64,000 nucleotides of DNA from Thermoguttaceae bacterium (GTDB lineage: Bacteria; Planctomycetota; Planctomycetia; Pirellulales; Thermoguttaceae): positions 62,001 through 126,000 of the forward strand of contig JANXBW010000010.1 of the NCBI GenBank assembly GCA_025060325.1. The letters are read 5' to 3'. Shown in pieces: positions 11,221-51,697 of this stretch. Numbering within the stretch: position 1 is the stretch's first letter; every line of letters begins with the position of its first letter. The notes beneath the pieces are model-generated. The model was given only the letters and a program-made list of their open reading frames with translations, was not told where the DNA came from and ran no database searches. A program made the translations under genes and the position numbers.

Positions 11221-12579
11221 ATGACTGGAACTACCAAGAGTCGACGCCAGTTCCTCAAATCGATGGGCTTGGTTGGAGCCGGAGCCTTTTGGGTCGCCCG
11301 CGGCAGTTCCGCTTTGGCTGGGTCCAGTCGGGAGAAGCTTGCCATCGAAGGCGGTGAGCCAGTACGCAAGTCAATGCTTTCTTCTCGGCCATATGGTCCA
11401 CAGTTCTACGATGATGTGGAAAAAAAGGAGCTCATCGAAGTCCTTGAGTCGCGAAATCCGTTCCGGTGGTGGCACGGCAATTCGAAGGTTCTCCAATTTG
11501 AACAAGCTTATGCAAAGCACATCGGTGTTAAGCACGCTTTAGGGGTGACGTCGGGAACCACAGCCCTTCTGACGGCGATGGCCGCCTTGGAAGTGGGGCC
11601 GGGCGATGAGGTCATTTTGCCGGCGTGGACTTGGTATGCCGACTATGACGTGATCGTATTGGCCGGGGCACTTCCGGTGTTTGTCGAGATTGATGAATCG
11701 TTTAACATTGACCCGACGGCGATTGCGGAGAAAATAACACCCCGTACCAAGGCCATCATTGCTGTTCATCTACAAGGCACCCCGGCCGACATGGATCCCA
11801 TCATGGACCTTGCTCGTAAACACGGGATCCGGGTTGTCGAAGATTGTGCCCAGTGCTGCGGGGGCAAGTACAAGGGGAAGTACGTCGGCGCCATCGGAGA
11901 TATTGGCATCAACAGCTTCCAGCTCAGCAAGACTATTACTTCGGGGGAAGGCGGGGCCGTAACGACGAACGACGACACGCTGTTTGAGCGGGCGATGCGC
12001 TTCCATGATGTGGGCTCTCTTCGCTCTCCATACACGGAAGCCTTAAAAGGAGGGCTACTATCGGGATTTGCGAGTTGCAATTTCCGGATGAACGAGTTTA
12101 CAGGTGCTGTGCTTAAAGCACAGCTTCAGAAGCTGGAGACCATTTGTGAGCGACTAAGGCGAAACGCGCGGATTGTTCGGGAAGGCATTGCCGATTTGCC
12201 GGGAATTAAATTGCGTAAAACGCCCGATCCAGAGGGTGATCTTGGTGTGGGCGTATTTATCGATTGCGGGAACCGTCAACGTCGGGACTTTTTCCTCAGG
12301 GCACTTCGGGCCGAGGGTGTTGCTGCCTCTGGCCCAAGTGGCTCGGTTATCTTGCCTGCTGACCCGCGAATTGAGCGAAAGGCAACCGTTCACCCCGATT
12401 GGCCTAGCTTTAATTCGCCCCGCGGTCGGGAAATTCAATACGGAGCCAGCTCGTGCCCGAAAACGATTGACATTATCGGTCGATTCGGTGGTGTGCTAAT
12501 GGATCCAAACTTTAGTGACCAGGACCTAAACGACATCATTCGGGCCATCCGGAAAGTCTACACGGCCATGCAAAGCTAG
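11221..12579 (+). CDS. Tat-exported DegT/DnrJ/EryC1/StrS aminotransferase (3 of 3)
   Basis: Third PLP enzyme in the row, 452 residues. Its signal contains a textbook twin-arginine motif, SRRQFLKS, followed by a hydrophobic stretch and a likely ALA cleavage site near residue 33. K237 (NSFQLSKTITSGEGG) is the catalytic lysine and D208 (VVEDCAQCCGG) the cofactor aspartate. The ATG at 11221 is preferred over an in-frame start 24 bases upstream because CGGAGG lies directly before it and because it places the twin arginines near the N terminus. Gene spacing to copy 2 is 140 bases. The three paralogues share order and orientation but differ in active-site surroundings, suggesting distinct substrates or steps. 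Confidence 0.9.
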   Translation: MTGTTKSRRQFLKSMGLVGAGAFWVARGSSALAGSSREKLAIEGGEPVRKSMLSSRPYGPQFYDDVEKKELIEVLESRNPFRWWHGNSKVLQFEQAYAKHIGVKHALGVTSGTTALLTAMAALEVGPGDEVILPAWTWYADYDVIVLAGALPVFVEIDESFNIDPTAIAEKITPRTKAIIAVHLQGTPADMDPIMDLARKHGIRVVEDCAQCCGGKYKGKYVGAIGDIGINSFQLSKTITSGEGGAVTTNDDTLFERAMRFHDVGSLRSPYTEALKGGLLSGFASCNFRMNEFTGAVLKAQLQKLETICERLRRNARIVREGIADLPGIKLRKTPDPEGDLGVGVFIDCGNRQRRDFFLRALRAEGVAASGPSGSVILPADPRIERKATVHPDWPSFNSPRGREIQYGASSCPKTIDIIGRFGGVLMDPNFSDQDLNDIIRAIRKVYTAMQS

Positions 12580-12855
12580 CGAGTCCCACGGAGGGCGATT
12601 AGGGAGCGGGTGAAAAATCAGCGCACCCGAGGTGGCAAGCACGTAAGATCCTTTGTGTCGGTCGCGGGCAACCGGGCGAAATTAAGGAAATAAGCGCCGC
12701 CGGGAAGCCGATTGACAGTTACTGTTTCAGAGGAAGCTCGCAACAAGGGGGCCGCGGAATTATTGTTGCTTAGGCGCACGCTGTCAGGAGGATTCGCGTA
12801 TTGCAAGCTGAATTCTCTTAAATCAGGAGTGTTTACGCAAGCGAGGTTGAGCAAT

Positions 12856-14298
12856 ATGAATAAGTCCAAAGTGATTACGCTCAAAGTCGGTGGTGTGTCG
12901 CGACGCTATTGGCTTCGTACCGCTGGAGCTGTGGTCGGGGGGCTGGCCCTTCCCAAATTGCTCGGGTGCGGCCAGCAGGCGGAAAGCCCGACACGGGTGC
13001 CGCAGGTCGTTGATCGTAAGGTCTTTGGCGCCAACGAACAGATTGGTGTAGGCATCATTGGCTGCGGCCGTCGCAACGGACAGCTGGTTACCGGCAATGT
13101 GGGCGAACTACCCAAAGAGGCAAGAATTGTCGCTGTGGCTGATGTCAACATCCGGCGGGCTGAGCAATGGGCTAAGAAGTACCAGTGCAAGCCTTTTCAA
13201 GATTATCGGAAAATGCTGGAGCTTAAAGAGGTCGATGTTGTCATTTACGCCACGCCGGAGCATTCCCACTATCTGCCCTGTATCCATGCTTGTCAGGCGG
13301 GGAAGGACATTTATGGGGAGCAACCGCTTAGCCACACAATCCGCGAAGGCCAGGTAATGGTCAAGGCGGTGCGCAAGTATAAACGAGTATTCCAAACGGG
13401 GGAGCAACAGCGGTCGCATCCTAAGACGCGGCGTGCTGTAGAGCTAATCCTCAATGGTCGAATCGGTAAGATCCAGAAGGTTATCGGTTACAACTACCCT
13501 AGTCCTTGGGACTGTCAATTGGCGGAGGAGCCGGTTCCCGAAGGGCTGGATTGGGACCATTGGTGCGGACAAAACGAGATTGTGCCGTTTAATATCAACA
13601 TCTATCTCTCACGTGTTCCGTACGAGCGCGGCGAATTCCCCCTTGAGCCGGCGGAAAAGGCCGCCATTGGTCCGGGGTGGATGTCTCTCCGGCCATATTC
13701 GGGTGGCGAACTAGTTAACTGGGGCTGTCACGGGCTGAGTATGGTCCTTTGGGCCTTGGGGATGGATAAGAGTGGACCGACAGAGATTTGGGTGGAGCCT
13801 CCGGTAAAGTTGGAAAAGCTCGTGTACGATAAGCCGGAAAAACGTGATCGTGGCGACCAGTTGATGAGCTCGCCTATTATTCATTACCGGTTTCCCAATG
13901 GCGTAGAACTGGAACTTTCCGGCGTTGACAAGCGCCTAGGCGGAGGTGCAACATTTATCGGCGAAAAGGGTACCATCACTATTTTCCGGAATGGCTATGA
14001 ATGCAATCCCAAAGATCTGGATAAGGAAGAGCTTCCCTCGGATGCGATCCGCGTCGAAGTCAGCGATAACCACATGCAGAACTTCTTCGACTGCGTCCGG
14101 TCGCGTAAAGATCCGATTGTCAACGTGGAGATTGGCCATCGAATTGCCAGCTTGTGCCACTTAGGAAATATCGCCCGCTGGCTGGGGCGCCGCCTCCAGT
14201 GGGATCCGGAAAAGGAGGTCTTTATCGGCGACGACGAGGCCAACCTGTATTTGGACTGTCCGAAGCGGAAGGGGTATGAACTTCCGGAGGAAGTGTAA
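12856..14298 (+). CDS. Tat lipoprotein oxidoreductase, Gfo/Idh/MocA family
   Basis: NAD(P)-dependent sugar oxidoreductase fold. The 480-residue protein begins with a twin-arginine motif (SRRYWLRT), a hydrophobic stretch and a lipobox (LLGC, C38), so it should be exported folded and lipid-anchored. The Rossmann motif is VGIIGCGRRNG (about 65-75). The conserved EKP motif, whose lysine is central to catalysis in this family, reads EQP (E155-Q156-P157, codon CAA), a notable change. The C-terminal alpha/beta domain (about 190-470) is typical of planctomycete members. The ATG at 12856, with GAGG upstream, gives the signal its normal length; an upstream extension has no export logic. Zymomonas glucose-fructose oxidoreductase is a known Tat-exported relative that carries its cofactor. 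It follows the three DegT genes. Confidence 0.9.
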   Translation: MNKSKVITLKVGGVSRRYWLRTAGAVVGGLALPKLLGCGQQAESPTRVPQVVDRKVFGANEQIGVGIIGCGRRNGQLVTGNVGELPKEARIVAVADVNIRRAEQWAKKYQCKPFQDYRKMLELKEVDVVIYATPEHSHYLPCIHACQAGKDIYGEQPLSHTIREGQVMVKAVRKYKRVFQTGEQQRSHPKTRRAVELILNGRIGKIQKVIGYNYPSPWDCQLAEEPVPEGLDWDHWCGQNEIVPFNINIYLSRVPYERGEFPLEPAEKAAIGPGWMSLRPYSGGELVNWGCHGLSMVLWALGMDKSGPTEIWVEPPVKLEKLVYDKPEKRDRGDQLMSSPIIHYRFPNGVELELSGVDKRLGGGATFIGEKGTITIFRNGYECNPKDLDKEELPSDAIRVEVSDNHMQNFFDCVRSRKDPIVNVEIGHRIASLCHLGNIARWLGRRLQWDPEKEVFIGDDEANLYLDCPKRKGYELPEEV

Positions 14299-14561
14299 GC
14301 ATTTCCGGCGGTCTTTTGCCCTGCGGGCTAGCTCGGCCAAAATTGTTGTTTACTAGGCAAAGTAACGGGGGGCTGCCCCAGCTCGCACACGTTCTTGTTA
14401 CGGAAAGCCTGTTAGCTTTCCACCCGGCAGCACGTTGGGCCAAGCGAGGGGTCACCGTGCGCTCACCTCCGGCCGCTTAGGCTTTTGCGTGCCACCCGAA
14501 GTGCCGCCCGGCGCCACCCCAGCGCTGAGGCAGCAGCCTTTATTTTTTTGGAGCTGTGTGC

Positions 14562-15896
14562 ATGAACTACTGTGTTAGCTGGATCTTCCCCAAAAGCAGC
14601 GTGAGGCTTTCGCTACTGGTCCTTCTTGCTTTCATTGGTGCGGGGGGGAGTGGGTGCACGCCACGGAAACCGGAAGGTCCGTCAACCGCGGCGCCTGCTC
14701 AACCGGCCGCGCAAAAGGCTTCCGAGACCGCGCCAACCACTTGGAGCGTCCCGGAGCCAATGCTTGTTCGGAAGGAGAAGGACTTTCGCGGTTTTGCCCG
14801 GGCAGTGCTTGTTGGTGGGCACCCGTTACTTCTAACGCGGCAAGTTCTGCCCGTCGATCGTAAGGGGGCTCTTCCCCCCGGGGAAGGGCCGGACCGCCTT
14901 AAGAATCAAGTTGACCTGTTACTTCGGAATGTGGAAACGCTGCTTGCCGAGAATGGATCAGGGTGGGACAAGCTAGTGCGGATCCACGGATATGTGACCG
15001 GTGTGGACGCAGCTCAGGTGTTGATAGAAGGCCTCGCCAGCCGAATGCCGGAGGGGGACCGGCCGGCTCTCTCTGTCGTCGAGACACCCCTTCCGCTTGA
15101 AGGGGCGCAAGTTGCGATTGACGTTGTAGCGATTTCCGCAGAGGACGTTAAAACCTTGACACTTCGGCGCTCAAGCACGATTTGGGGTGAGGAGGGTTTT
15201 GCCGATGTCGCTTTGCTTCCGGCCGTAGGTCTGGGATTTTTCTCGGGTTATCCGGAAAAAGGCGAGCAGACGGAGGCCGCCGCCAAGTCGTTGGGCGGAT
15301 TGCTGGAACTTGGTCAACAGCTAGGGGTGACCCGCTCTGACATTGCATATTTCCGGGCATTTGTTCAACCAGTGAGCCTGGCCAACACGGTGAAGAGTCA
15401 ACTTCGTAAAACATTTGTGGACCAGCTTGTGCCGCCTGCGGCGTATGTCGAATGGATCGCCTCCGCCCCGGTGGAAGTCGAGATGATCGCGGCCCTTCGC
15501 TCACCCTCCGCCCTTTTAGGTGATAAGATCAGGTTTTATAACCCCCCGGGGGTGAAACCTTCCCCGACATTTACCCGAGTGGTGCTGGCAAGTCCTGGCG
15601 TTTACATTTTTACAGGTGGGCTGATTGCTCAGGAGGCACCGGACGGCGTGGCGGAGGTTAGGGATATCTTTAAGCAACTTAGCGATCTTGTCGACCAGTC
15701 GGGGAGTGATCTGCGTCATCTCCTTAAGGCCACTTATTGTGTAAGTGGAAAGGAGTCAAGTGCGGCCCTTGATAAACTTCGGCCGGAGTACTTTGATCCC
15801 GCCCGGCCGCCGGCTGCATCCAAGGTCACCGTCCATGGTGTTGCGGCGAAAGATCGGTCAATTGTCGTTGACATGATCGCCCTAGGTAGCAAATAG
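14562..15896 (+). CDS. Lipoprotein with three tandem RidA (YjgF/UK114)-like domains
   Basis: Predicted lipoprotein of 444 residues: a membrane-spanning signal (about 12-30) ends in GGSGC, a slightly atypical lipobox, followed by a Pro/Ala-rich linker to about residue 65. Three RidA-like units seem to follow (about 70-200, 205-325 and 328-444); each ends in the family pattern of a hydrophobic V-x-I-D-x-V/M-A-type strand (AIDVVAI, VEMIAAL, VVDMIAL). RidA is normally a homotrimer with active sites between subunits, so one chain could form a pseudo-trimer. By eye the arginine that binds the imine carboxylate in RidA is absent from all three (PALS, PPAAY, PAAS in place of PARS). GGAG precedes the ATG at 14562. 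It ends the exported-enzyme cluster. Confidence 0.75.
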   Translation: MNYCVSWIFPKSSVRLSLLVLLAFIGAGGSGCTPRKPEGPSTAAPAQPAAQKASETAPTTWSVPEPMLVRKEKDFRGFARAVLVGGHPLLLTRQVLPVDRKGALPPGEGPDRLKNQVDLLLRNVETLLAENGSGWDKLVRIHGYVTGVDAAQVLIEGLASRMPEGDRPALSVVETPLPLEGAQVAIDVVAISAEDVKTLTLRRSSTIWGEEGFADVALLPAVGLGFFSGYPEKGEQTEAAAKSLGGLLELGQQLGVTRSDIAYFRAFVQPVSLANTVKSQLRKTFVDQLVPPAAYVEWIASAPVEVEMIAALRSPSALLGDKIRFYNPPGVKPSPTFTRVVLASPGVYIFTGGLIAQEAPDGVAEVRDIFKQLSDLVDQSGSDLRHLLKATYCVSGKESSAALDKLRPEYFDPARPPAASKVTVHGVAAKDRSIVVDMIALGSK

Positions 15897-16230
15897 GATT
15901 AGCTACCAGCGGGGAATTTCGCTGACATGACGAATGCGGCCGAGCCCTCGTTTGGGCGGGCAAGAGCATGCAAGATCAACGTGATGAGCCGGGCAGCCGT
16001 TTTTTTATGATACTGTGTCTTGCGCGCTCCGGGAGGGTGGTGTAACTCGACAGTCTTTGCAAATTCTTTGGCTTTGGCAAGAATCCCAGGGTGTTGGTGG
16101 GTGCCAGGGTTCTCTGACAAAACCGATTTACGGCCTGTTAGGCGGGACTTTGCAACTAAGACTTAGCTAACCTAACAAAGGGTGGCGGAGGTATTTCGGG
16201 GCACCAGTGTTCGAGCGGCTCCGGCGATGG
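15897..16230. other. Intergenic between convergent genes
   Basis: The gap lies between the RidA-like lipoprotein gene (plus) and the rhomboid gene (minus). A run of seven T's ends near 16006 after a weak G+C-rich fold and could serve as a terminator for the plus-strand cluster, but I see no long stem. No gene is supported. Confidence 0.35.
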
Positions 16231-17040
16231 CTATTCGGAAGTCCTTTCTCGCGGGGCTAACCAAATCATCATACCGATACCTGCCAAAAAACCACCGATA
16301 TGCGCCCACCAAGCGATGCCACTTCCGACCTCGTTTCCTGAGCCGAGGACGCCGAGCAGTTGTCCCAAAAACCAAAGCCCGATGAAAAGGAGCGCCGGGA
16401 TTCTGACGGTGGTGAGAACTATCATATAGACAAGGCAATGAACGCGTGCATGTGGCCAGGTAATGGCATAGGCGCCAAGGGCCGCTGAGATTGCCCCGCT
16501 TGCTCCGATCGTGGGAACCACGCTTGTCGGATACGCGGCATAATGGGCAAGTGCGGCAATTATTCCGCCAAGCAAATAAAACAACAAAAAGCGAAACGGT
16601 CCGAGGCGATCCTCTACGTTGTTGCCGAATAGCCAGAAAAACCACATGTTTCCCACCAAGTGAAGCCAACTGCCGTGGAGAAACATGCTGGTGATAATGG
16701 AGCGCAAAACACGAGGGGCCGGTTGCGGCGGTAAAACCACCTCCCCCGGAACCCCCTTAGCTCTCCAGAATGTCAAGACAGTGTCGTAACGTTGATGTTG
16801 TCTTTGCAATTCGTCACGAAGCTCAGCCGGCAAATAGCGCCCATCTATGACAACGGGTCGACGCAGATAAAGTTGAGTGAGCTGGATAGGAACAAAGCCG
16901 TACTGATAAGTGAGCCGATAGCGTTCCCTTTCTGGCAAACGCGACATGTGAATGTGGACAAGCACATTGGTAGCAATGAGAAGTACGGTGAGCCACGGGA
17001 ATCGCTCAGTTGGGTTGTCATCATGATAGGGGAGCAACAT
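16231..17040 (-). CDS. Rhomboid family intramembrane serine protease
   Basis: Membrane protease that cleaves substrates within their transmembrane helices. The 269 residues contain the expected marks: an N-terminal helix (about 15-32), a soluble insertion (about 33-110), the HxxxN region HLVGNMWF (H127, N131), the nucleophile motif GASGA (S181) and the catalytic histidine H247 in WWAHIGG. The serine/histidine dyad is therefore intact. The soluble loop after the first helix, with a long charged helix, is typical of bacterial rhomboids with an L1 extension. It lies downstream of the FabZ-like gene on the same strand with about 190 bases between them, so cotranscription is possible but not obvious. 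Confidence 0.92.
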   Translation of the reverse strand: MLLPYHDDNPTERFPWLTVLLIATNVLVHIHMSRLPERERYRLTYQYGFVPIQLTQLYLRRPVVIDGRYLPAELRDELQRQHQRYDTVLTFWRAKGVPGEVVLPPQPAPRVLRSIITSMFLHGSWLHLVGNMWFFWLFGNNVEDRLGPFRFLLFYLLGGIIAALAHYAAYPTSVVPTIGASGAISAALGAYAITWPHARVHCLVYMIVLTTVRIPALLFIGLWFLGQLLGVLGSGNEVGSGIAWWAHIGGFLAGIGMMIWLAPRERTSE

Positions 17041-17227
17041 GCGACGGGCCCCTTGCTCCGCGAATCAATTGAAAAACACCCCGTTTCAAAAAGTTTGTCT
17101 TTTCACGCGCTTGCAGAAATGCGCAAGAAACCTCAGGGGAGGCTTTCCCCCGACTATCGCGTTTACCCGCCCCGCCTGTAGCTATGCCTTTCGTGCCTCT
17201 CCCGGCCGACAATCACATGCTCAAGCT

Positions 17228-17734
17228 TTAGGTCCCGCTTCGCAAACTTTCGACGGGTAGAGGAATTCCCTTGATTACGCCCTCGCAGACGAGATTTTCC
17301 CGCACAAAGCACTGAAATTGACAACTCATCAGAGTAGCACGGACCCGTAGCATCTTGGCCACGATCACGAATCTTTCCCCCGGTCGCACCACGCCGCGGA
17401 AGCGGACATCCTCAAGGCCGGCAAACCCGATCATTTCGGCGTCCATCAGCTTATACTTCTTCGTGTAGTAACTGGCCAGTTGGGCGGCAGCTTCGCACAT
17501 AATGACGCCCGGCATGATGGGCATACCGGGCATGTGCCCACGGATCCAGAACTCGTCCGGCCCGAGGTCCTTGTACCCCACACAAATGCCCCGCTCCGGG
17601 TCTTCGTAAACGATGGCCGTCAGCTGCTCCATCTCGTATCTTTGGGGATTGTAGCGACGAATTTCCTCGATGTCCGCGATGACGCGGTTCAGGTCGTATT
17701 CCGAGGGGTCGAGGATCAACGCCTTTTTTGCCAC
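17228..17734 (-). CDS. FabZ-like 3-hydroxyacyl-ACP dehydratase (hotdog fold)
   Basis: Hotdog-fold protein resembling beta-hydroxyacyl-ACP dehydratases of fatty acid synthesis. The catalytic pair is present: H67 in IRGHMPGMPIMPG and E81 in IMCEAAAQLA, matching the GHFPGxPxMPG...EAxAQ pattern of FabZ. At 168 residues it is slightly longer than FabZ (about 145-150), with an N-terminal extension of about 45 residues. The start is a GTG preceded by GGAGG eight bases away. Planctomycetes often encode several FabA/FabZ-like paralogues, some near pigment or polyketide genes; none is visible here, so the substrate is open. Confidence 0.85.
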   Translation of the reverse strand: MAKKALILDPSEYDLNRVIADIEEIRRYNPQRYEMEQLTAIVYEDPERGICVGYKDLGPDEFWIRGHMPGMPIMPGVIMCEAAAQLASYYTKKYKLMDAEMIGFAGLEDVRFRGVVRPGERFVIVAKMLRVRATLMSCQFQCFVRENLVCEGVIKGIPLPVESLRSGT

Positions 17735-18147
17735 GATTCCCTCCTTTTCCCGGCCCGGCTTGCCGTTAGTTGCGCTGTGGGAGTTAGCGAGCCGGAACGA
17801 TTTCAGGAGAAACCCGAATTAATCCGTCGATGACTCCTACCGGCGCCCACACAGTGTTGTCCGTTTACCCGCCTATTTTGCCTCCCTTTTCCTGCCAGCG
17901 ATTTTAATGACGGGCTCTTACCGTGCCAATTGTCGACAAACAAAAAGAACCCTACCGCCGGGCGACCGGCTTTGCGATCGCACAATGCGGCAGCGGCGGC
18001 TCATAGAGTCGAGAAAGGACCGGGCTGGTGCTGGCCGCAGGGCACAATCCGCTTTCTTGCACCGCGACTTCTCCGACGCCCTTTCCGGCGCCGAAATAAG
18101 GAAAAGCCGCCGAGGCGGCTCGAACCTGCGGTACCCAGCGAAAGCCG
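17735..18147. other. Intergenic containing one terminator
   Basis: Between the FabZ-like gene and the small basic protein gene, both on the minus strand. Apart from the terminator hairpin at 18102-18120 and the ribosome binding site of the FabZ-like gene, I see no gene. Confidence 0.4.
18102..18120 (-). terminator. Intrinsic terminator after the bL37-like gene
   Basis: On the minus strand, AGCCGC and GCGGCT form a six-pair G+C-rich stem around CTCG and are followed by TTTTC. It lies 28 bases past the stop codon of the small basic protein gene, which supports that gene being a separate transcription unit. Confidence 0.75.
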
Positions 18148-18246
18148 TTAAGTGCGAACGAGACGTCGCTTGGCCCGCCGAGCTTTGCTATTGGAGGGAC
18201 GTTTTCCGTGATTAGCCTTCTTGATTTTTCGATGGGGTTTGGCCAT
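18148..18246 (-). CDS. Small basic protein, bL37-like ribosomal protein candidate
   Basis: A 32-residue protein, MAKPHRKIKKANHGKRPSNS followed by a basic tail ending LVRT. Nearly half its residues are Lys, Arg or His. The central KANHGKRP segment matches what I recall of mycobacterial 50S protein bL37, which also begins MAK and is about 24 residues long. Three signals support a real gene: GGAGGA lies six bases before the ATG, the frame is short but clean, and a strong intrinsic terminator follows on the same strand. Its coding frame is too short for ordinary gene callers. The family link rests on a short motif from memory, so the ribosomal role is a good hypothesis rather than established. 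It stands alone upstream of the FabZ-like gene. Confidence 0.7.
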   Translation of the reverse strand: MAKPHRKIKKANHGKRPSNSKARRAKRRLVRT

Positions 18247-20013
18247 CGGTTTCCTCCGGCTGTTCAAGACTTACCGCTACAAGGTGGTCGTATCGACCGA
18301 TGAATGAATTTAATCGCGAAATTCTTGGCGGCCGTTATTTAGCCAATCTCTCGCCGTAAAGTAGACGGGGCCAGATCGCACCGTCTCACCTTTCTAGAGG
18401 CAACGCTTATAGCAACCCTTTGGCAACCGAACCCTGCGGGGCTTGTGCCGCCGGTGGTTGGCAGCTCCCTCTCCCGCAACTCCCGCGCCCCTTCTTATCA
18501 GGGTTTCCCGTCACTCGAGAAACATGCTCCCCAGCCCATTGCTCAAGGGCATAACAAAGACCCACTCAGTAAGTCGATTGCGACAATTATAACCGAATTG
18601 ATTGCAATGGTTAGAGACCATTGTCCGCCACAACTCTGGACTAATTCGAACCCGATATGACGTAATTGAGAATAGTCCCGGAGCGTCCCCTTCGGCGCTG
18701 GACCGACGCCGGGAAGTGAGGATACCGACGCCCAAAGGTAAGGGTAATTTGACTTGCTACGTCGCAAAGAAACTCCGGGGCGCCCAGTGGTGGCCCGCCG
18801 GATGGCCTGAGGTCGGTGGGTCCTCCTTTCGAGCCCGCCCAAGGCTCGCATTGAGCTTGCAGCCCGGCCAAAGCGACTGATTAGAACCGCCCGGTAGCGG
18901 CAGTGACGCCCGGCCCCGTCAACCACCAAGCACCCGTCTAGCTCTGCACGATCAGGCGCTCCGGCGGTTATGTATGGGGGATTCTGCAGGGGTTTTCTCG
19001 GTGTTGGCTAATAACTTCCGAGTCGACCGGGAGTGGAGCCGGTCGCTGGTTGCCGGAAGGTGGGCCAGCTGCCAGGACATGCTGCCGGCGGCTGGCGCAA
19101 GATGGAACCAGGCTTGGCCACTCGCGCTCGTTGCGAGGATGTCGCTTGCCGCTTGATGGGGAAAACCGCTTCGGACGCGAGGATCTCGGCGGATTCGAAC
19201 TCGCTACGCCATTTTGCGCAACGGGATCCCCTTCGTCCTGCGGCGGTGGCCTTGCCGAGCCAATGCTCGGCGCTTTTCGCCAACGCTCACCATCCGCCAG
19301 GCTTTCCCAAAAAGGCCGCTTACAGCAAAGGAGTTGTGACCTCAGCATGTAGATTGCGTCCGATATGTTCCCCCCTAATAATTGTCGCCAAGTAACTGCG
19401 AATTGGGCGCGGGCTTTGGCCCGGTTTTACGATGAGCGGGCCAGGTTGGTCGGCCATTGGTGAATTTCGAGAAGAACGCTTTGTAAATTTTGGGGCACCG
19501 GGTCTGATTTTTCTGGTTGCTTTAGCCGGAGGTATGCTCCGGCAAGAGGCACCGTTAACAGTGGGCCTTGTCGCAGGTAGCTTTGAGGTTGCGCATATTA
19601 ATGATTGTGCAGTCGTGGCAAGGGAGGGCTAACCGTACAAATTTCTCCGTTGTGTTGATTTAGTGGGGTCGCTGTTTAATTGCGAGCAACCTGCGATTTT
19701 ACCTCGTGTTTAAGGGATAAGAGGACCGGCGTGGGAGGCCTCTCTGCAGGTGTTTTAGTGGGCCGGTTTGTTCCGTAAATCGCGCGATTATTTGTTTAGG
19801 GTAGATTTTTCTTTGTTAATACGCCGTCGTTGAGTTTTGCACGCCGGAGAGTGTGGGGCGAATCAACTTGCCTACCAGATGCCGTTACTTGCACGGAGGG
19901 CGGGGGAATTGAAGCTCCGTGGGTCATGGATAAGCCCCTGTACTCTATTTCCGGAAGCTCGGACGAGAGAAGCATTCGATTCGGTTGCTTTGTTGCAGAA
20001 AGGAGGAGGGGAG
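18247..20013. other. Long intergenic region, no gene recognised
   Basis: Nearly 1.8 kb without a convincing gene. Several frames run 60-130 codons on both strands but lack ribosome binding sites and recognisable protein patterns. I looked for the sequence signatures of RNase P RNA, tmRNA, SRP RNA and tRNA and did not see them. It must contain the promoter of the bL37-like gene (left side) and of the PQQ-like gene (right side). Confidence 0.4.
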
Positions 20014-21294
20014 ATGAGGCACTGTTGGCGCATGACACGTTTGTCCACAGCGGCGTTTGCAGTGTGGATGGTCGGATGCTGTTTGCTAACCGGGGTCGCT
20101 TTCGCTCAGGATTGGCCTCAATGGCGAGGACCGAACCGTGACGGATACATCGTTGGCTTGACACTTCCGGAAAGTTGGCCAGCGTCATGGCGGCCGGTTT
20201 GGCGGATAGAGGTGGGGGAAGGTTATTCTTCCCCAGTCTTGGTCGGCGATCGCCTTTACGTTTTCGCCCGAGAGGACGAGCAGGAAGTCCTTCGCGCTGT
20301 CTCGCTTGTTGATGGAAAAGTGCTTTGGGTACAGAAATATCCGGCACCTTACGAAGTCAACCCAGCTGCCCGGGCTCATGGCAAAGGCCCGAAATCAACA
20401 CCCGTGGTCGGCGGGAATAAGATCGTGACGTTGGGTATCAGTGGCATCCTAAGCTGTTGGTCGACCGAGGACGGAAAACTCCTGTGGCAACACCGTTTTG
20501 AGGACCGATTTGGGGAGACATCGCCAGACTTTGGCACGGCGATGTCCCCGATGGTTTTGGACGGCCAGAGAGTGCTTGCTTTCGTGGGTGGGCCGGAAAA
20601 GGGTGCGTTCTGCGCTTGGGACCTTGCGAGCGGTAAGGAGCTGTGGCAGTGGGCGGGCGACCCGCCGGCTTATTCGTCGCCGGTTTTGGCCACTCTTGGA
20701 GGCAGAGAGCAAGTAGTTATCCAGTCCCGCCGGTTTTGTTCGGGACTTGACCCTCAGACCGGCGAGCTCCTTTGGCAAGTGCCCTTTGTGACGCAATATA
20801 ATGTCAACATCGTGACTCCGGTTGTCTGGAATGACTTACTGATTGTTTCGGGCTTTCGCCGCGGGACAACTGCTTATCGGATTGTTCCTCAAGGGGGCAA
20901 GTTAGCCGCCCAGGAGGTTTGGCATAACAAAGAGGTGTCGATGTACATGAATTCGCCGGTGGTAGTCGGCGACCGGCTGATCGGACTGGCGCAAGAGCAA
21001 CGGGGCCAATTCTTCGCTTTGGACGCTGCTAGCGGTAAAGTCCTTTGGCGGAGTGAACCTAAACAAGGAGAAAATGCAGCTCTTCTGGTGTTGGGTAAAT
21101 ACGTGCTTGCACTCACCACCGGCAGTGAACTGATAGTGCTAGATCCAGCTGCCGACAGCTTTAAGCCCATCGTTCGTTGGAAGGTGGCGGAAACGCCGAC
21201 CTGGGCACATCCCGTGTGGTCGAAAGCCGGACTAGTAGTGAAAGAATTCCGGCACCTAGCACTTCTTGCGCCGGAAAGCCGCTCTGCAAATTGA
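20014..21294 (+). CDS. Secreted PQQ-like beta-propeller repeat protein
   Basis: Exported protein of 426 residues built from beta-propeller (PQQ_2-like) blades. The N terminus is a signal peptide (hydrophobic to about residue 32, with cleavage near AFA-QDW), directly followed by DWPQWRGPNRDG, a motif that opens a large family of planctomycete propeller proteins. Blade repeats such as GKVLWVQKYPA, GKLLWQHRFED, GKELWQWAGDP and GELLWQVPFV follow. The ATG at 20014 is chosen because AAAGGAGG precedes it and it gives a normal signal; an upstream in-frame extension lacks one. No catalytic dehydrogenase residues are evident, so it is more likely a binding or scaffold protein than a quinoprotein enzyme. 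The gene stands alone; a paralogue is at 40373-41707. Confidence 0.85.
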   Translation: MRHCWRMTRLSTAAFAVWMVGCCLLTGVAFAQDWPQWRGPNRDGYIVGLTLPESWPASWRPVWRIEVGEGYSSPVLVGDRLYVFAREDEQEVLRAVSLVDGKVLWVQKYPAPYEVNPAARAHGKGPKSTPVVGGNKIVTLGISGILSCWSTEDGKLLWQHRFEDRFGETSPDFGTAMSPMVLDGQRVLAFVGGPEKGAFCAWDLASGKELWQWAGDPPAYSSPVLATLGGREQVVIQSRRFCSGLDPQTGELLWQVPFVTQYNVNIVTPVVWNDLLIVSGFRRGTTAYRIVPQGGKLAAQEVWHNKEVSMYMNSPVVVGDRLIGLAQEQRGQFFALDAASGKVLWRSEPKQGENAALLVLGKYVLALTTGSELIVLDPAADSFKPIVRWKVAETPTWAHPVWSKAGLVVKEFRHLALLAPESRSAN

Positions 21295-21648
21295 AGCTCA
21301 AATGTCCCGGGAAGTTGCGGCCGCTGCAATTTTCGGATTGTGATTCGGGCGCGCGGCGCGGGAGAGTACCCACGCATCATGGGCCGAAAAGGTAGTTCAT
21401 GATGCCCGACCACATGCATTCTTGAGGTGCTTTCCCAGTGCATGCTGGGGCGGGCCAGCGTCCGCAAGGTGTTGATAAGGCGTTGACGGAGAGTCACTCC
21501 TTGGCAAGCATGCCGACGGGCTATTGCCAGAAACCTGGCGGTATCTTTTTGGTGGAACTTGCCTCGGGCGTTCTTGCCGGTGTGACGGCCCGAGTTCTTG
21601 TTGTCGACGTTCTGCTTTTCCTCAAGGAGGTTTCAGGAGCTTCTGCGA
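21295..21648. other. Intergenic, no supported gene
   Basis: Spacer between the PQQ-like gene and the PIG-L gene. The PIG-L ribosome binding site (CAGGAG) lies at its right end. I see nothing else. Confidence 0.4.
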
Positions 21649-22410
21649 ATGAGTTTGCCCTCCCGGAAAGTAGCACTTGCTTTTATGGCCCATCCGGACG
21701 ATGCGGAGTTTCTTTGCGCCGGAACACTCCTTCGGCTGGGTGAAGTGGGCTGGGAACTGCATATTGCCACAGCGGCGCCCGGCGATTGTGGCACGATGAC
21801 TGAGACAAAGTGGGCAATTAGCGCAAGGCGAACGCGGGAGGCGGAGGACGCGGCTCGGCTACTCGGGGCCCGTTATTACTGTTTGGACGAAAGGGACGGG
21901 TTTATCGTTTACGATAAAGCAACACTGCAAAAAGTTTACGACCTCTTTCGCCGGATTGCCCCAACCTTGGTGTTCGCCCATGCTCCGCAGGATTACATGA
22001 TGGATCATGAGGTCTGCTCGGCCCTGGCACGGGCAGCAAGCTTTCTGTACGGGGCCCCTAATTGCTCCGAGTTTCCTCGGCACCCGGAGAGTCAGGTGCC
22101 TTATCTTTACTATTGCGACCCGGTGGAGGCCACGGACATCTTCGGCCGGCGAGTGACACCGACAACTTATGTGGACATCTCGGCTTATTTAGAGAAAAAG
22201 GCGGCGGCTTTAGCTTGCCACGCTAGCCAGCGGGATTGGCTGCTTGCACATCATGGCGTGGATGAATACCTTGAAGGGATGCGTCGACATGCTCGGTTGC
22301 GGGGTGAAGAAATCGGTGTGCAGGCGGCCGAGGCCTTCGTCCAGCACCGGGGACATGCCTATCCTCGGAATGATCTGCTCGCTGAACTTTTTGCATCGCA
22401 AAAAAGTTAA
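21649..22410 (+). CDS. PIG-L family deacetylase
   Basis: Zinc-dependent deacetylase of the PIG-L/LmbE family, which removes acetyl groups from GlcNAc-containing substrates (for example the bacillithiol enzyme BshB, or chitobiose). The zinc motif is MAHPDDAEF (residues 13-21, counting from the preferred ATG), and a later histidine cluster AHAPQDYMMDHE supplies further ligands. At 253 residues it is of normal length and has no signal peptide, so it is cytoplasmic. The ATG at 21649 is preferred because CAGGAG lies nine bases upstream and the protein then starts just before the fold; a start 51 bases further up adds an unlikely leader. The NagB-like gene follows on the same strand after 129 bases, consistent with amino-sugar breakdown. 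Confidence 0.92.
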   Translation: MSLPSRKVALAFMAHPDDAEFLCAGTLLRLGEVGWELHIATAAPGDCGTMTETKWAISARRTREAEDAARLLGARYYCLDERDGFIVYDKATLQKVYDLFRRIAPTLVFAHAPQDYMMDHEVCSALARAASFLYGAPNCSEFPRHPESQVPYLYYCDPVEATDIFGRRVTPTTYVDISAYLEKKAAALACHASQRDWLLAHHGVDEYLEGMRRHARLRGEEIGVQAAEAFVQHRGHAYPRNDLLAELFASQKS

Positions 22411-22539
22411 TAAGGGGGTGTTAGTCTTGTTCATGATGTTCGGGTAGATGTTCTGGGGGAGATACGGAACTGTCTATCTGGGTAAACGCTCGGTAGGGTA
22501 GCGGGAGTTACAGTTTGCTCAGGGAAGGAGAAGTTGACA

Positions 22540-23472
22540 ATGGCACGACCGCTCAGCAAAGTGGCGCCCGACTGGTGGGATTACACAACGCTTGACCCCG
22601 AGCTTTTGGCCGACGCAGCTAAATTGACGCCACGAGCAATGGAACGCCTGTCCCGGCCAGGTTTTAAGGTGGTGATGTACGACACCTTGGAAGAGTTTTA
22701 CCTAGCTGAGGCGTTGGAATACATCGAGGCTTGGCGGCAGTCGACCGATGATAACCCGGCGGGCATTTGCGGCCCGATTGGTCCTACGGAGCAGTTGCCG
22801 CTTGTAGCCCGGATCGTCAACAGCTTGCAGCTTGACATCCGCAGCGCCCACTTTTGGGGGATGGACGAATGGGTGGGTGATGATGGGAAGCCGGTTTCAC
22901 CCGATCATCCCCTCAGTTTTGCGCGGGCGGATATGGAACTTTGCTTTAACCGGATCGATCGCAAACTGCGGATGCCCGACTCGCACATCCATTTCCCGAC
23001 GGGGGATCTTGAGGAATATTCCCGCTCCTTCGACCAGGTTCGCTGTGTCATCATGCAGGGAGGGCAGGGGGAGGTAAAACACTGGGCGTTTAATGATCCG
23101 CCGAAGCGCACAGGCCGTTGGAAAAATGAACCGCCGCCGCCAGAAGAGTATCGCAAGCTTAAAACTCGCATTACCGACCTTCACCCAATGACCATCATCC
23201 AAAATGCCCGCACAAGTGGCGGTGGTCAGGTGGCGCTTGTGCCTACCAAGGCGGCGACCGTAGGCCCAGTAGAAACATGGAAGGCTGAAAAAGTGTCCAT
23301 TTGGCACCCGGGTCACCACGACAATCCGTTTGGCATGCGACTGACCACCCTCATGATCGCAAAGAAGATCGTGGATACTTCGGTACCGATGTCGTTGCTT
23401 GCCGACCATCCGAATGTCCAATTTAACTTTTATCGGCCTGGCATCGGGACTTGCGAAATAGAAATGCACTAG
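22540..23472 (+). CDS. Divergent NagB-like glucosamine-6-phosphate deaminase/isomerase
   Basis: Member of the NagB/6-phosphogluconolactonase fold, 310 residues. NagB converts glucosamine 6-phosphate to fructose 6-phosphate and ammonia. Recognisable pieces are the phosphate-loop region [13 protein letters not shown], the WGMDEWVG segment equivalent to the family DEY, and KHWAFNDPP in place of GHIAFNEPG. In that last motif the histidine is kept, the glutamate is aspartate, and the catalytic aspartate two residues before the histidine appears replaced by valine. It may therefore have changed chemistry or substrate. The ATG at 22540 follows AAGGAG; a TTG two codons earlier is less likely. It follows the PIG-L deacetylase, which could supply a free amino sugar. 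Confidence 0.8.
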
Positions 23473-23754
23473 GAGGGGCGGCCGAATATTAGCTTCGGGC
23501 TGGGGCCGCGGCTGATGCGAAAAGTAACGCCCCGATTGCGTTGACGAGGTCTGTAGCGTCCGCGTCATAGGATCGCACTTTCGCCCGGCTCACCAGAGGA
23601 AATCGTTTGCGCTGGCCCGCTAGTTCCCAAGGTCTGGAACAAGGCATCGGGAGGCATAAACTCAGTTCATCGCCGGATAAGCAGGTCACGCTGGCCGAGC
23701 TAGCCCGAAGGCCGGGAATGTCTACCTTGCATCGGGGATGAGAGCCGTCCAAGC

Positions 23755-24831
23755 CTATGCGGGCGGGGGGACGGTGTTTGTCTTCGGCTTAAGCGCAGCC
23801 AGCTTTTCCTCAAGCTTTTCCTGGCCGGACAGGAATTCGATTTGGCTTACAAGTGCCCACAACGGCCGCTTGCCGAGGAAATCTTTGCCAAGCTTTACCA
23901 GGTCTTTTTGTGTACAAATCACAGCCTTAATGTCAAGCTGATCTGCCCAGCGTCCCAAGCGGTCCAGGTCATCGGGGCGATACCGGTAATGATCCGGAAA
24001 TTCTTGGAAGGCGATTACCCGAAACCCATGCCTTTCCAAAGTCAGGCGAAAGGATGCGGGATTGCCGACCCCGCAGAAGGCGGCCACATTCTGCCGCCGG
24101 TAAGCGGAGAGCGGTGCAGCCTCACCGCTTGCGTTGACGAGATGTTGCGGGCAATAGGCCACTTCCGCCCAAAGCGCATCAGGATTAAGCTGCCGGGCCT
24201 TTTGTTCAATTTCCCTTCTCGTGAATTCGTCTACGAGGTCGGCACGCGAAAGAACAAGGACATGAGCTCGCCGGAGTTCCGTCAACGGCTCTCGCAGTGT
24301 GCCGCGGGGAAAGACGTGCCCAAAGCCAAATGGCTCAAGGGCATCAAGGAGAACAAGGTCGAGGTCTCGGTGTAGTCTCCGGTGCTGAAAACCATCGTCC
24401 AAAATGAGAAGTTGGGCTCCGTTTTGGCTAATCGCAAGCTCTGCCGCTTGGACGCGGTCCGCCTGCTGATAATGGGGCACATCGGGGACGAGACGGCGAA
24501 GCTCGGCAGCTTCGTCATTGCCGGTGTCTCCCAAAGCGCCGTAGCCCCGACTGAGAATGGCCACGTGGACATTTTGCCGGCGGTACCACTGAGCAAGCCA
24601 GGCAACAAGGGGTGTCTTACCCGTCCCGCCGAGTACCAGATTGCCTACGCTAATCACAGGCACTCCCACCCAAAAGGTGCGGAATGTTCCGCGATCGTAA
24701 GCACGATTGCGGGCCTGGATTATCCAGGAGTAAGGGACCTCGGCGGCGGCTAGGATGGCGCGCAATAGTCCCGCCCACAGTCCGCGCTGCTGACCGCTGA
24801 TCACCTGGTAGTATGTCCGCCCGTCGATCAC
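23755..24831 (-). CDS. lpxK: Tetraacyldisaccharide 4'-kinase
   Basis: Lipid A kinase that phosphorylates the 4' position of the tetraacyl disaccharide at the inner membrane. The 358 residues contain an N-terminal hydrophobic region (about 15-38), the SVGNLVLGGTGKTP motif (residues 61-74, a P-loop typical of LpxK), and the LLILDDGFQHRRLHRDLDLVLLD stretch (split here as DDGFQHRRLHRDLD) with the family DDGxQH motif. Length is normal. The start is GTG and has no obvious ribosome binding site, so an alternative nearby start is possible. Presence of lpxK and lpxA agrees with planctomycetes having lipid A-type outer membranes. The gene converges with the NagB-like gene. Confidence 0.95.
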   Translation of the reverse strand: MIDGRTYYQVISGQQRGLWAGLLRAILAAAEVPYSWIIQARNRAYDRGTFRTFWVGVPVISVGNLVLGGTGKTPLVAWLAQWYRRQNVHVAILSRGYGALGDTGNDEAAELRRLVPDVPHYQQADRVQAAELAISQNGAQLLILDDGFQHRRLHRDLDLVLLDALEPFGFGHVFPRGTLREPLTELRRAHVLVLSRADLVDEFTRREIEQKARQLNPDALWAEVAYCPQHLVNASGEAAPLSAYRRQNVAAFCGVGNPASFRLTLERHGFRVIAFQEFPDHYRYRPDDLDRLGRWADQLDIKAVICTQKDLVKLGKDFLGKRPLWALVSQIEFLSGQEKLEEKLAALKPKTNTVPPPA

Positions 24832-26725
<1,894 letters not shown>

Positions 26726-51213: not shown

Positions 51214-51614
51214 CTGTTTGACCTGCGATCAAACGCCTCTGGAAGCGGATTAGATCATTAAATTAGTCATCAAAGTCGTGATCACCATGGAGGGATCACG
51301 GGGGCCAGCGCTTTTTGGCTTCGGTCAAACTTATCGGCCGGCTTTTCCGCAAACTTTTCCCAACTTCCCGTTTTTCGCGGGAAAGAAGGCTGCCCGAGTT
51401 AGTCGTGAACCAAAGGCCCGTTCGGGCGATAAGGTGCAGACCGAATTGGCCCGGAGGTCGGCAAAAGGGTTGGAGTGGGGCGACGAGCATCGACCAAGGC
51501 CATCGACCTGGTGACAGGTCCATAAAAGGCCCAATTAAGGCCTGGTGCGTTGCCAGCGCGGCCGAGCAATGGAGGAGGATTTGGCGACCTAGGCCGGGAG
51601 CTGTGTCACCAAAG
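51214..51614. other. Intergenic, no supported gene
   Basis: Spacer between the tRNA-Ser gene and the FliN-like gene, both minus strand. GTGATCAC and its imperfect partner GGGATCAC near 51279-51300 could form a small hairpin. No gene was recognised. Confidence 0.35.
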
Positions 51615-51697
51615 CGGAGGGTGCGGGACTCGAACCCGCAACCCCTTTCGGGGCACCACATCTCCAGTGTGGCTCCTCACCAATTCGGATACCCTCC
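51615..51697 (-). tRNA. tRNA-Ser(GGA)
   Basis: A complete class II tRNA on the minus strand. Acceptor arms GGAGGGT and ACCCTCC pair fully over seven bases, with G as discriminator, usual for serine tRNAs. The T arm is GCGGG-TTCGAGT-CCCGC, the anticodon arm CCACA-CTGGAGA-TGTGG with anticodon GGA, and the long variable arm CCCC-GAAA-GGGG is typical of tRNA-Ser. No CCA is encoded, so it must be added after transcription. Confidence 0.96.

Follow-up and report, generated by a model that had tools for sequence, protein, structure and literature searches.

The question raised by this locus is whether a very short minus-strand frame of a planctomycete encodes bL37, a ribosomal protein that excerpts of three papers place elsewhere: solely in high-G+C actinobacteria (PMC5876184), specifically in actinobacteria (PMC10085706), or so far only in mycobacterial ribosomes, with a derivation from uL30 (PMC10618245). 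A literature search found no publication treating bL37 together with planctomycetes. We analysed a window of 64,000 nucleotides from a Thermoguttaceae bacterium (contig JANXBW010000010.1, positions 62,001 to 126,000 of the forward strand), in which a sequence-only reading had proposed an unannotated 32-residue bL37-like gene with a ribosome binding site and a terminator. The features of the locus are collected in Table 1.

Table 1. Features at and next to the putative bL37 gene (positions within the window)
Feature	Position	Strand	Details	Basis
Planctomycete bL37 gene (probable)	18148..18246	-	32 aa, MAKPHRKIKKANHGKRPSNSKARRAKRRLVRT, stop TAA	Translation, NF047429.1 score, genome search
Shine-Dalgarno GGAGG	18253..18257	-	6 nt ahead of ATG	Read from sequence
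Core motif KANHGKRP	18196..18219	-	Residues 10-17	Conservation among relatives
Terminator-like hairpin and imperfect T run	18094..18121	-	Starts 26 nt past stop	Consensus scan
FabA-like (hydroxyacyl-ACP dehydratase) gene	17228..17734	-	Downstream neighbour	PF07977, E = 2e-21
Rhomboid-domain gene	16231..17040	-	Next downstream	PF01694, E = 4e-33

The frame lies at 18148-18246 as proposed and ends in TAA. The minus strand reads gccggaggaaaccgATG, and the ribosome binding site is likewise present, with GGAGG at 18257-18253 and the proposed start 6 nt away. The terminator was borne out only in part: a 7-pair stem was found at 18121-18104, followed by a T run that is imperfect (TTCCTTATTT), and the terminator alone is weak evidence because the kilobase around the gene holds 4 terminator-like sites on both strands compared to a shuffle mean of 1.6 (sd 1.5). 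AlphaFold predicted helices at residues 7-10 and 20-29 of the peptide (mean pLDDT 69.8, block 21-30 at 79), with most of the KANHGKRP motif in the loop between them and the first helix at low confidence. In the roughly 450 bases on the 5' side of the gene (18247-18700), neither a gene nor an RNA family was recognised convincingly, and the frames listed there are mechanical ORFs. An Rfam search of window positions 12000-26000 gave nothing above threshold and a single sub-threshold match; the window's sole tRNA is at 51614-51697.

Comparison with existing family models showed that the protein already has a name. NCBIfam NF047429.1 (ribo_Plancto_bL37), an equivalog model for 50S ribosomal protein bL37 in NCBIfam release 20, matched the peptide over positions 1-32 of 32 with 60.3 bits (cut-off 40), and model and window gene represent the same protein over its full length, with no difference. 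Since NCBIfam holds this equivalog model, the family is known to annotators, and the description of the gene as unannotated does not hold at the family level. The actinobacterial model NF047428 (ribo_Myco_bL37) gave 21.3 bits over residues 6-17, under its cut-off of 30, and scored the window gene at 16.9 bits (E = 0.06) in a search of the organism's own genome. In that 4.78 Mb genome, the gene was the single match to NF047429 (58 bits); the same profile matched none of 14 control genomes, and each genome with the gene yielded a single copy in the searches made. Pfam has no family for the peptide, and plasmid records gave no match to it at E <= 1. The window gene is real and very probably encodes an under-described ribosomal protein of an already named family. 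What the analysis adds is the breadth and divergence of this family in a phylum without detected uL30, plus a link to a mitochondrial protein that is statistically clear at the level of sequence.

Conservation of the gene was evaluated on the best 80 of 296 confirmed loci, ordered by likeness to the window protein; all 80 are planctomycete by record title, a few of these assignments being ones we presume. The ORF has 32 codons in 79 of them and 33 in the remaining one, which was excluded from the substitution analysis. In the window gene and the other 79 loci, mean pS was 0.70, mean pN 0.19 and the median dN/dS 0.15, with 1822 of 3160 pairs usable, which favours less saturated pairs; entropy by codon position was 0.55/0.39/1.33. 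K10, A11, N12, H13, G14, R16 and P17 were identical throughout the close relatives (78 of 78 distinct sequences). Outside the retrieval seed, K26 (77/78), R27 (78/78) and T32 (77/78 distinct sequences) were also kept, and among 32 diverse members A and N were invariant, while H, G and P each reached at least 90%. Of the 73 phylum genomes matched by NF047429, 70 supplied one homologue each; a Shine-Dalgarno-like 4-mer, taken from a loose set, preceded 46 of these 70 homologues and was present in 23 of 68 control windows (Fisher p = 3e-4). Because the profiles grew step by step out of their own matches, the core motif was selected for; ORF length, start sites, the tail conserved in close relatives and the synonymous differences are evidence independent of profile building. 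We conclude that the window gene is conserved and under purifying selection.

These data bear directly on the reading that the locus is a chance frame with a coincidental motif. Thirty-two codons are few, and terminator-like sites are merely 2.5 times as frequent as in shuffles, as such a frame would allow; conservation at the protein level despite near-saturated synonymous sites speaks against it, as does a back-translated KANHGxRP pattern that was found in 74 of 294 planctomycete genomes, with 0 for the reversed pattern in every genome listed. A coincidence of this kind is thus a negligible prospect. Three places of the pattern (in G200, in G116 and at G133:C40:16427) were judged to be chance when read in translation; one further place, the second in G082, was left unread.

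We searched short frames of planctomycete genomes with bL37 profiles, the check that had been suggested for this gene. NF047429 matched 73 of 294 phylum genomes, 25 above its cut-off and 48 below. Profile A1, derived from 44 of these matches, reached 80 of 294, including one probable chance match (G133:C36, in which the core is absent); A3, with divergent forms included, reached 91 of 294, and the iterated profile A4 102 of 294, which belong to 34 of 92 sampled families. Ninety-nine of the 102 A4 matches were read in translation (G190, G202 and G246 were unread). The fifteen weakest, all read, carry [KR]ANHG, or LANHG in G256, in short basic ORFs with a plausible start, except that one (L217) extends to about 86 residues and another (L215) lacks an ATG or GTG nearby. 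Profile A5 was applied to 15 previously unmatched genomes and gave something at E <= 1 in 12, of which eight best matches look like chance and 4 were held to be real: family f44 (3 of 3 tested) and one further member of f48. The f44 members (L220, L222 and L223), with MRDKRRQRLTWRSKRANHGKMGCKGRRVGRYK and a near variant, matched A5 at E = 1e-4 to 0.0014. Their very divergent pattern is RANHG[KR]MG[CT]KGRRVGRYK, with MG in place of RP.

The near-universal core of the family is [KR]ANHG (L031 has KANGG and G016 has KANGR), and both tails are variable. Compared to NF047429, the wider planctomycete set adds subfamilies of the types KANHGARP...GSGKK, WRSKKANHGRKP... and MRDKRRQRLTWRSKRANHGKMG..., and 22 of 29 diverse members matched the model at E <= 1, with 7 giving no match. 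The earlier suggestion that annotation may miss the gene fits the divergent subfamilies, in keeping with the 25 of 73 matches that pass the cut-off. A KANHGRKP subfamily (L190-L194 and L208-L219), often with WRSKKANHG ahead of the loop, escapes the RP pattern and NF047429 and, nearly wholly, A1.

Within the class, 97 of 198 genomes were matched. The own order contributes 48 of 49 genomes, provided that unmatched genomes sort by kinship, as the 20 listed suggest (there are 81 more), and the remaining 49 matches all belong to family f3. The 20 unmatched genomes listed comprise 19 from f102-f105 and one from the own order, G419; two weak A3 matches among them (E <= 0.1) were judged chance and not counted. 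In f102-f105 the bL37 gene is lost or unrecognisable. The phylum sample (21/21) had suggested that bL37 is ubiquitous in the class, which was dropped in light of the class search. Moreover, profile searches left bL37 undetected in many planctomycete families, some near-complete genomes among them, and nothing convincing was found in f5, f58, f65, f76, f25, f12, f34, f75, f102 and f103 (one or two genomes each). Such absences are soft, since only the top first-look candidates were scored (26-27 per genome for the phylum, 40 for the class and up to 150 in chosen genomes). The presence of the family in about a third of the sampled planctomycete genomes means that bL37 is not confined to actinobacteria, which the sequence-only reading had proposed on condition of homology, and that the family spans more of the planctomycetes than the bL37 papers state.

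A very basic short peptide might also be a nucleic-acid-binding or antimicrobial peptide and no ribosomal protein at all. The composition would suit this, K, R and H making up 47% of a peptide on average and acidic residues numbering 0.07 (n = 70 homologues), and an excerpt of PMC10085706 reports disk assays in which C. acnes bL37 itself inhibited S. aureus and S. epidermidis. A housekeeping-like spread through the order (48/49, under the same proviso on kinship), a single copy per genome and the ribosomal role assigned by NCBI point the other way, and we regard a non-ribosomal role as highly improbable.

We then compared the planctomycete proteins with actinobacterial bL37 (NF047428; 5o60 chain 3, 7kgb chain v and 8crx chain V). 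The ANHGKRP loop and the basicity are common to both, the sizes are similar (24 aa in actinobacteria and 32 aa in the window protein), and the likeness of KANHGKRP to mycobacterial bL37, noted beforehand, is exact, the motif being identical letter for letter in mycobacterial bL37 chains of the PDB. The flanks differ: in actinobacterial bL37, [KG]ANHG is preceded by 14 residues and KRP is followed by two, whereas in the window protein 9 residues precede KANHG and 15 follow KRP. An excerpt of PMC5876184 describes bL37 as starting with a helix of about 13 residues, after which comes a loop. The window protein has just 9 residues ahead of KANHG and a short predicted helix, at low confidence, at residues 7-10; families f28 and f56 (MAKKISKRRGRITKANHGARP...) have 12-13 residues there; their N-termini are nearly of actinobacterial length.

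In searches of PDB sequences, the single window peptide matched 7kgb_v at E = 0.066. With A1, 7kgb_v was the best bL37 chain at E = 0.0015, and the other four followed at 0.0062, 0.072, 0.25 and 2.5; with A5, 7kgb_v reached E = 6e-5 and the other bL37 chains listed 9e-4 to 0.045, C. acnes bL37 being absent at E <= 1. E-values of 0.01-0.05 are untrustworthy here, because a phospholipase A2 chain that shares NHG reached E = 0.026 with A5. The f28/f56 sequences align end to end with 7kgb_v, but at E = 0.012. When sequences were shuffled, the real A1 score was reached in 0 of 20,000 shuffles for M. tuberculosis bL37, 1 for M. smegmatis and 10 for C. acnes. The organisms are those to which we take the chains to belong, as the PDB search output gave molecule names alone. 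No planctomycete chain was among the PDB matches of the single peptide, A1 or A5, and a literature search found no planctomycete ribosome structure.

A search with PF00327 detected uL30 in 0 of 294 planctomycete genomes, many of them incomplete assemblies, and in 13 of 14 control genomes; it was undetected alike in planctomycete genomes with and without bL37. In the own genome, the uS5 stop and the uL15 start overlap (L207 1480-1483) with no gene between them, so that the usual rpmD slot, known from the E. coli order rpsE-rpmD-rplO, is closed. A lack of uL30 in planctomycetes may already have been published. Since bL37 was undetected in many families, a uL30-less ribosome can do without recognisable bL37.

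With uL30 undetected throughout the 294 genomes, one could imagine a planctomycete basic ribosomal peptide that is not bL37, that is bound elsewhere, for example at the vacant uL30 site, and that reached ANHGKRP independently. Indeed, the match between the window peptide and bL37 spans about 12 residues, under the cut-off of the actinobacterial model, and other peptides are reported in the same cleft as bL37: the N-terminal extension of Borrelia uL30 (PMC10618245) and Coxiella CLaSP, the latter without substantial bL37 identity (PMC13392368). Both are different proteins, known here by description, and the excerpts of these two papers mention no KANHG core for either. The stretch in common with the planctomycete proteins is the C-terminal loop of bL37, shuffled sequences almost never reached the real score, and the length and N-terminus of f28/f56 come near those of actinobacteria. 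Independent origin thus appears unlikely, although clearly less so than a non-ribosomal role.

Our preferred reading is that the window gene encodes planctomycete bL37, which would very probably be, judging from its sequence, a highly basic large-subunit peptide seated in a pocket of 23S rRNA next to H89 and the tip of 5S rRNA. Excerpts of PMC5876184 and PMC10085706 describe the bL37 pocket as lying below the 5S tip and being formed by 23S H39, H40, H72, H89 and the joint between H41 and H42. By analogy with these structures, the ANHGKRP loop would occupy the same pocket and brace H89 beside the peptidyl-transferase centre. In the window subfamily, the stretch before the loop is shorter, and KRP is followed by a 15-residue tail that is basic and predicted to be helical. 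Because uL30 is undetected in planctomycetes, this tail may, speculatively, cover part of the surface vacated by uL30. The Borrelia uL30 extension is described, in the excerpt of PMC10618245, as reaching the bL37 pocket, and the same excerpt proposes that bL37 split off from a long uL30. With uL30 in 0 of 294 genomes, bL37 persists here while its parent according to that paper is undetected; the uL30 body could have been lost following such a split, but the data give no support to this.

The best PDB match of A1 was not a bL37 chain but ciliate mL102 (6z1p chain AQ, 109 aa), at E = 6e-8 compared to 0.0015 for the best bL37. Residues 62-88 of this chain carry KKANHGARPCSS, and RNARPPKKANHGARPCSSVMRRLKKK corresponds to the core and to where the tail begins in the planctomycete profile. 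A5 matched mL102 at E = 4e-5 and the f28/f56 profile only at 0.031; for the matched fragment, which was chosen because it matched, 0 of 20,000 shuffles reached the real score. mL102 differs from planctomycete bL37 in its flanks, the matched stretch being preceded by about 60 residues and followed by about 20. The mitoribosome containing mL102 is described in an excerpt of PMC7326499 as lacking 5S rRNA, and the term "bL37" is absent from the main text of that paper. We infer that the loops of mL102 and bL37 coincide in site, the site of mL102 being taken from a single sentence in the excerpt of PMC7326499. The bL37 family possibly extends into mitochondria, as suggested by this sequence match; if the link is true, the same small protein would fill a pocket by the peptidyl-transferase centre in planctomycetes, actinobacteria and a mitochondrion.

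The bL37 papers confine the protein to mycobacteria or actinobacteria, and about a third of the sampled planctomycetes have the family. A wider interpretation, which we offer tentatively and as a possibility more than an expectation, would be that bL37 is an old bacterial ribosomal protein with a [KR]ANHG core and not an actinobacterial invention. It would occur widely in Planctomycetota, would not depend on uL30, could change in both tails and would be kept as mL102 in at least one mitochondrial lineage; its apparent rarity would arise because peptides of 24-37 residues are overlooked by gene callers and family cut-offs.

Finally, the neighbourhood of the gene was compared among 81 loci, the window counted. 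Two neighbour clusters (42 and 34 loci, the window not among them) are suspected shadow frames. A homologue of the FabA-like gene lies downstream on the same strand in at least 33 of the 81 loci and a rhomboid homologue is present in at least 12, counts that are lower bounds because the loci differ in length; neither neighbour is ribosomal.
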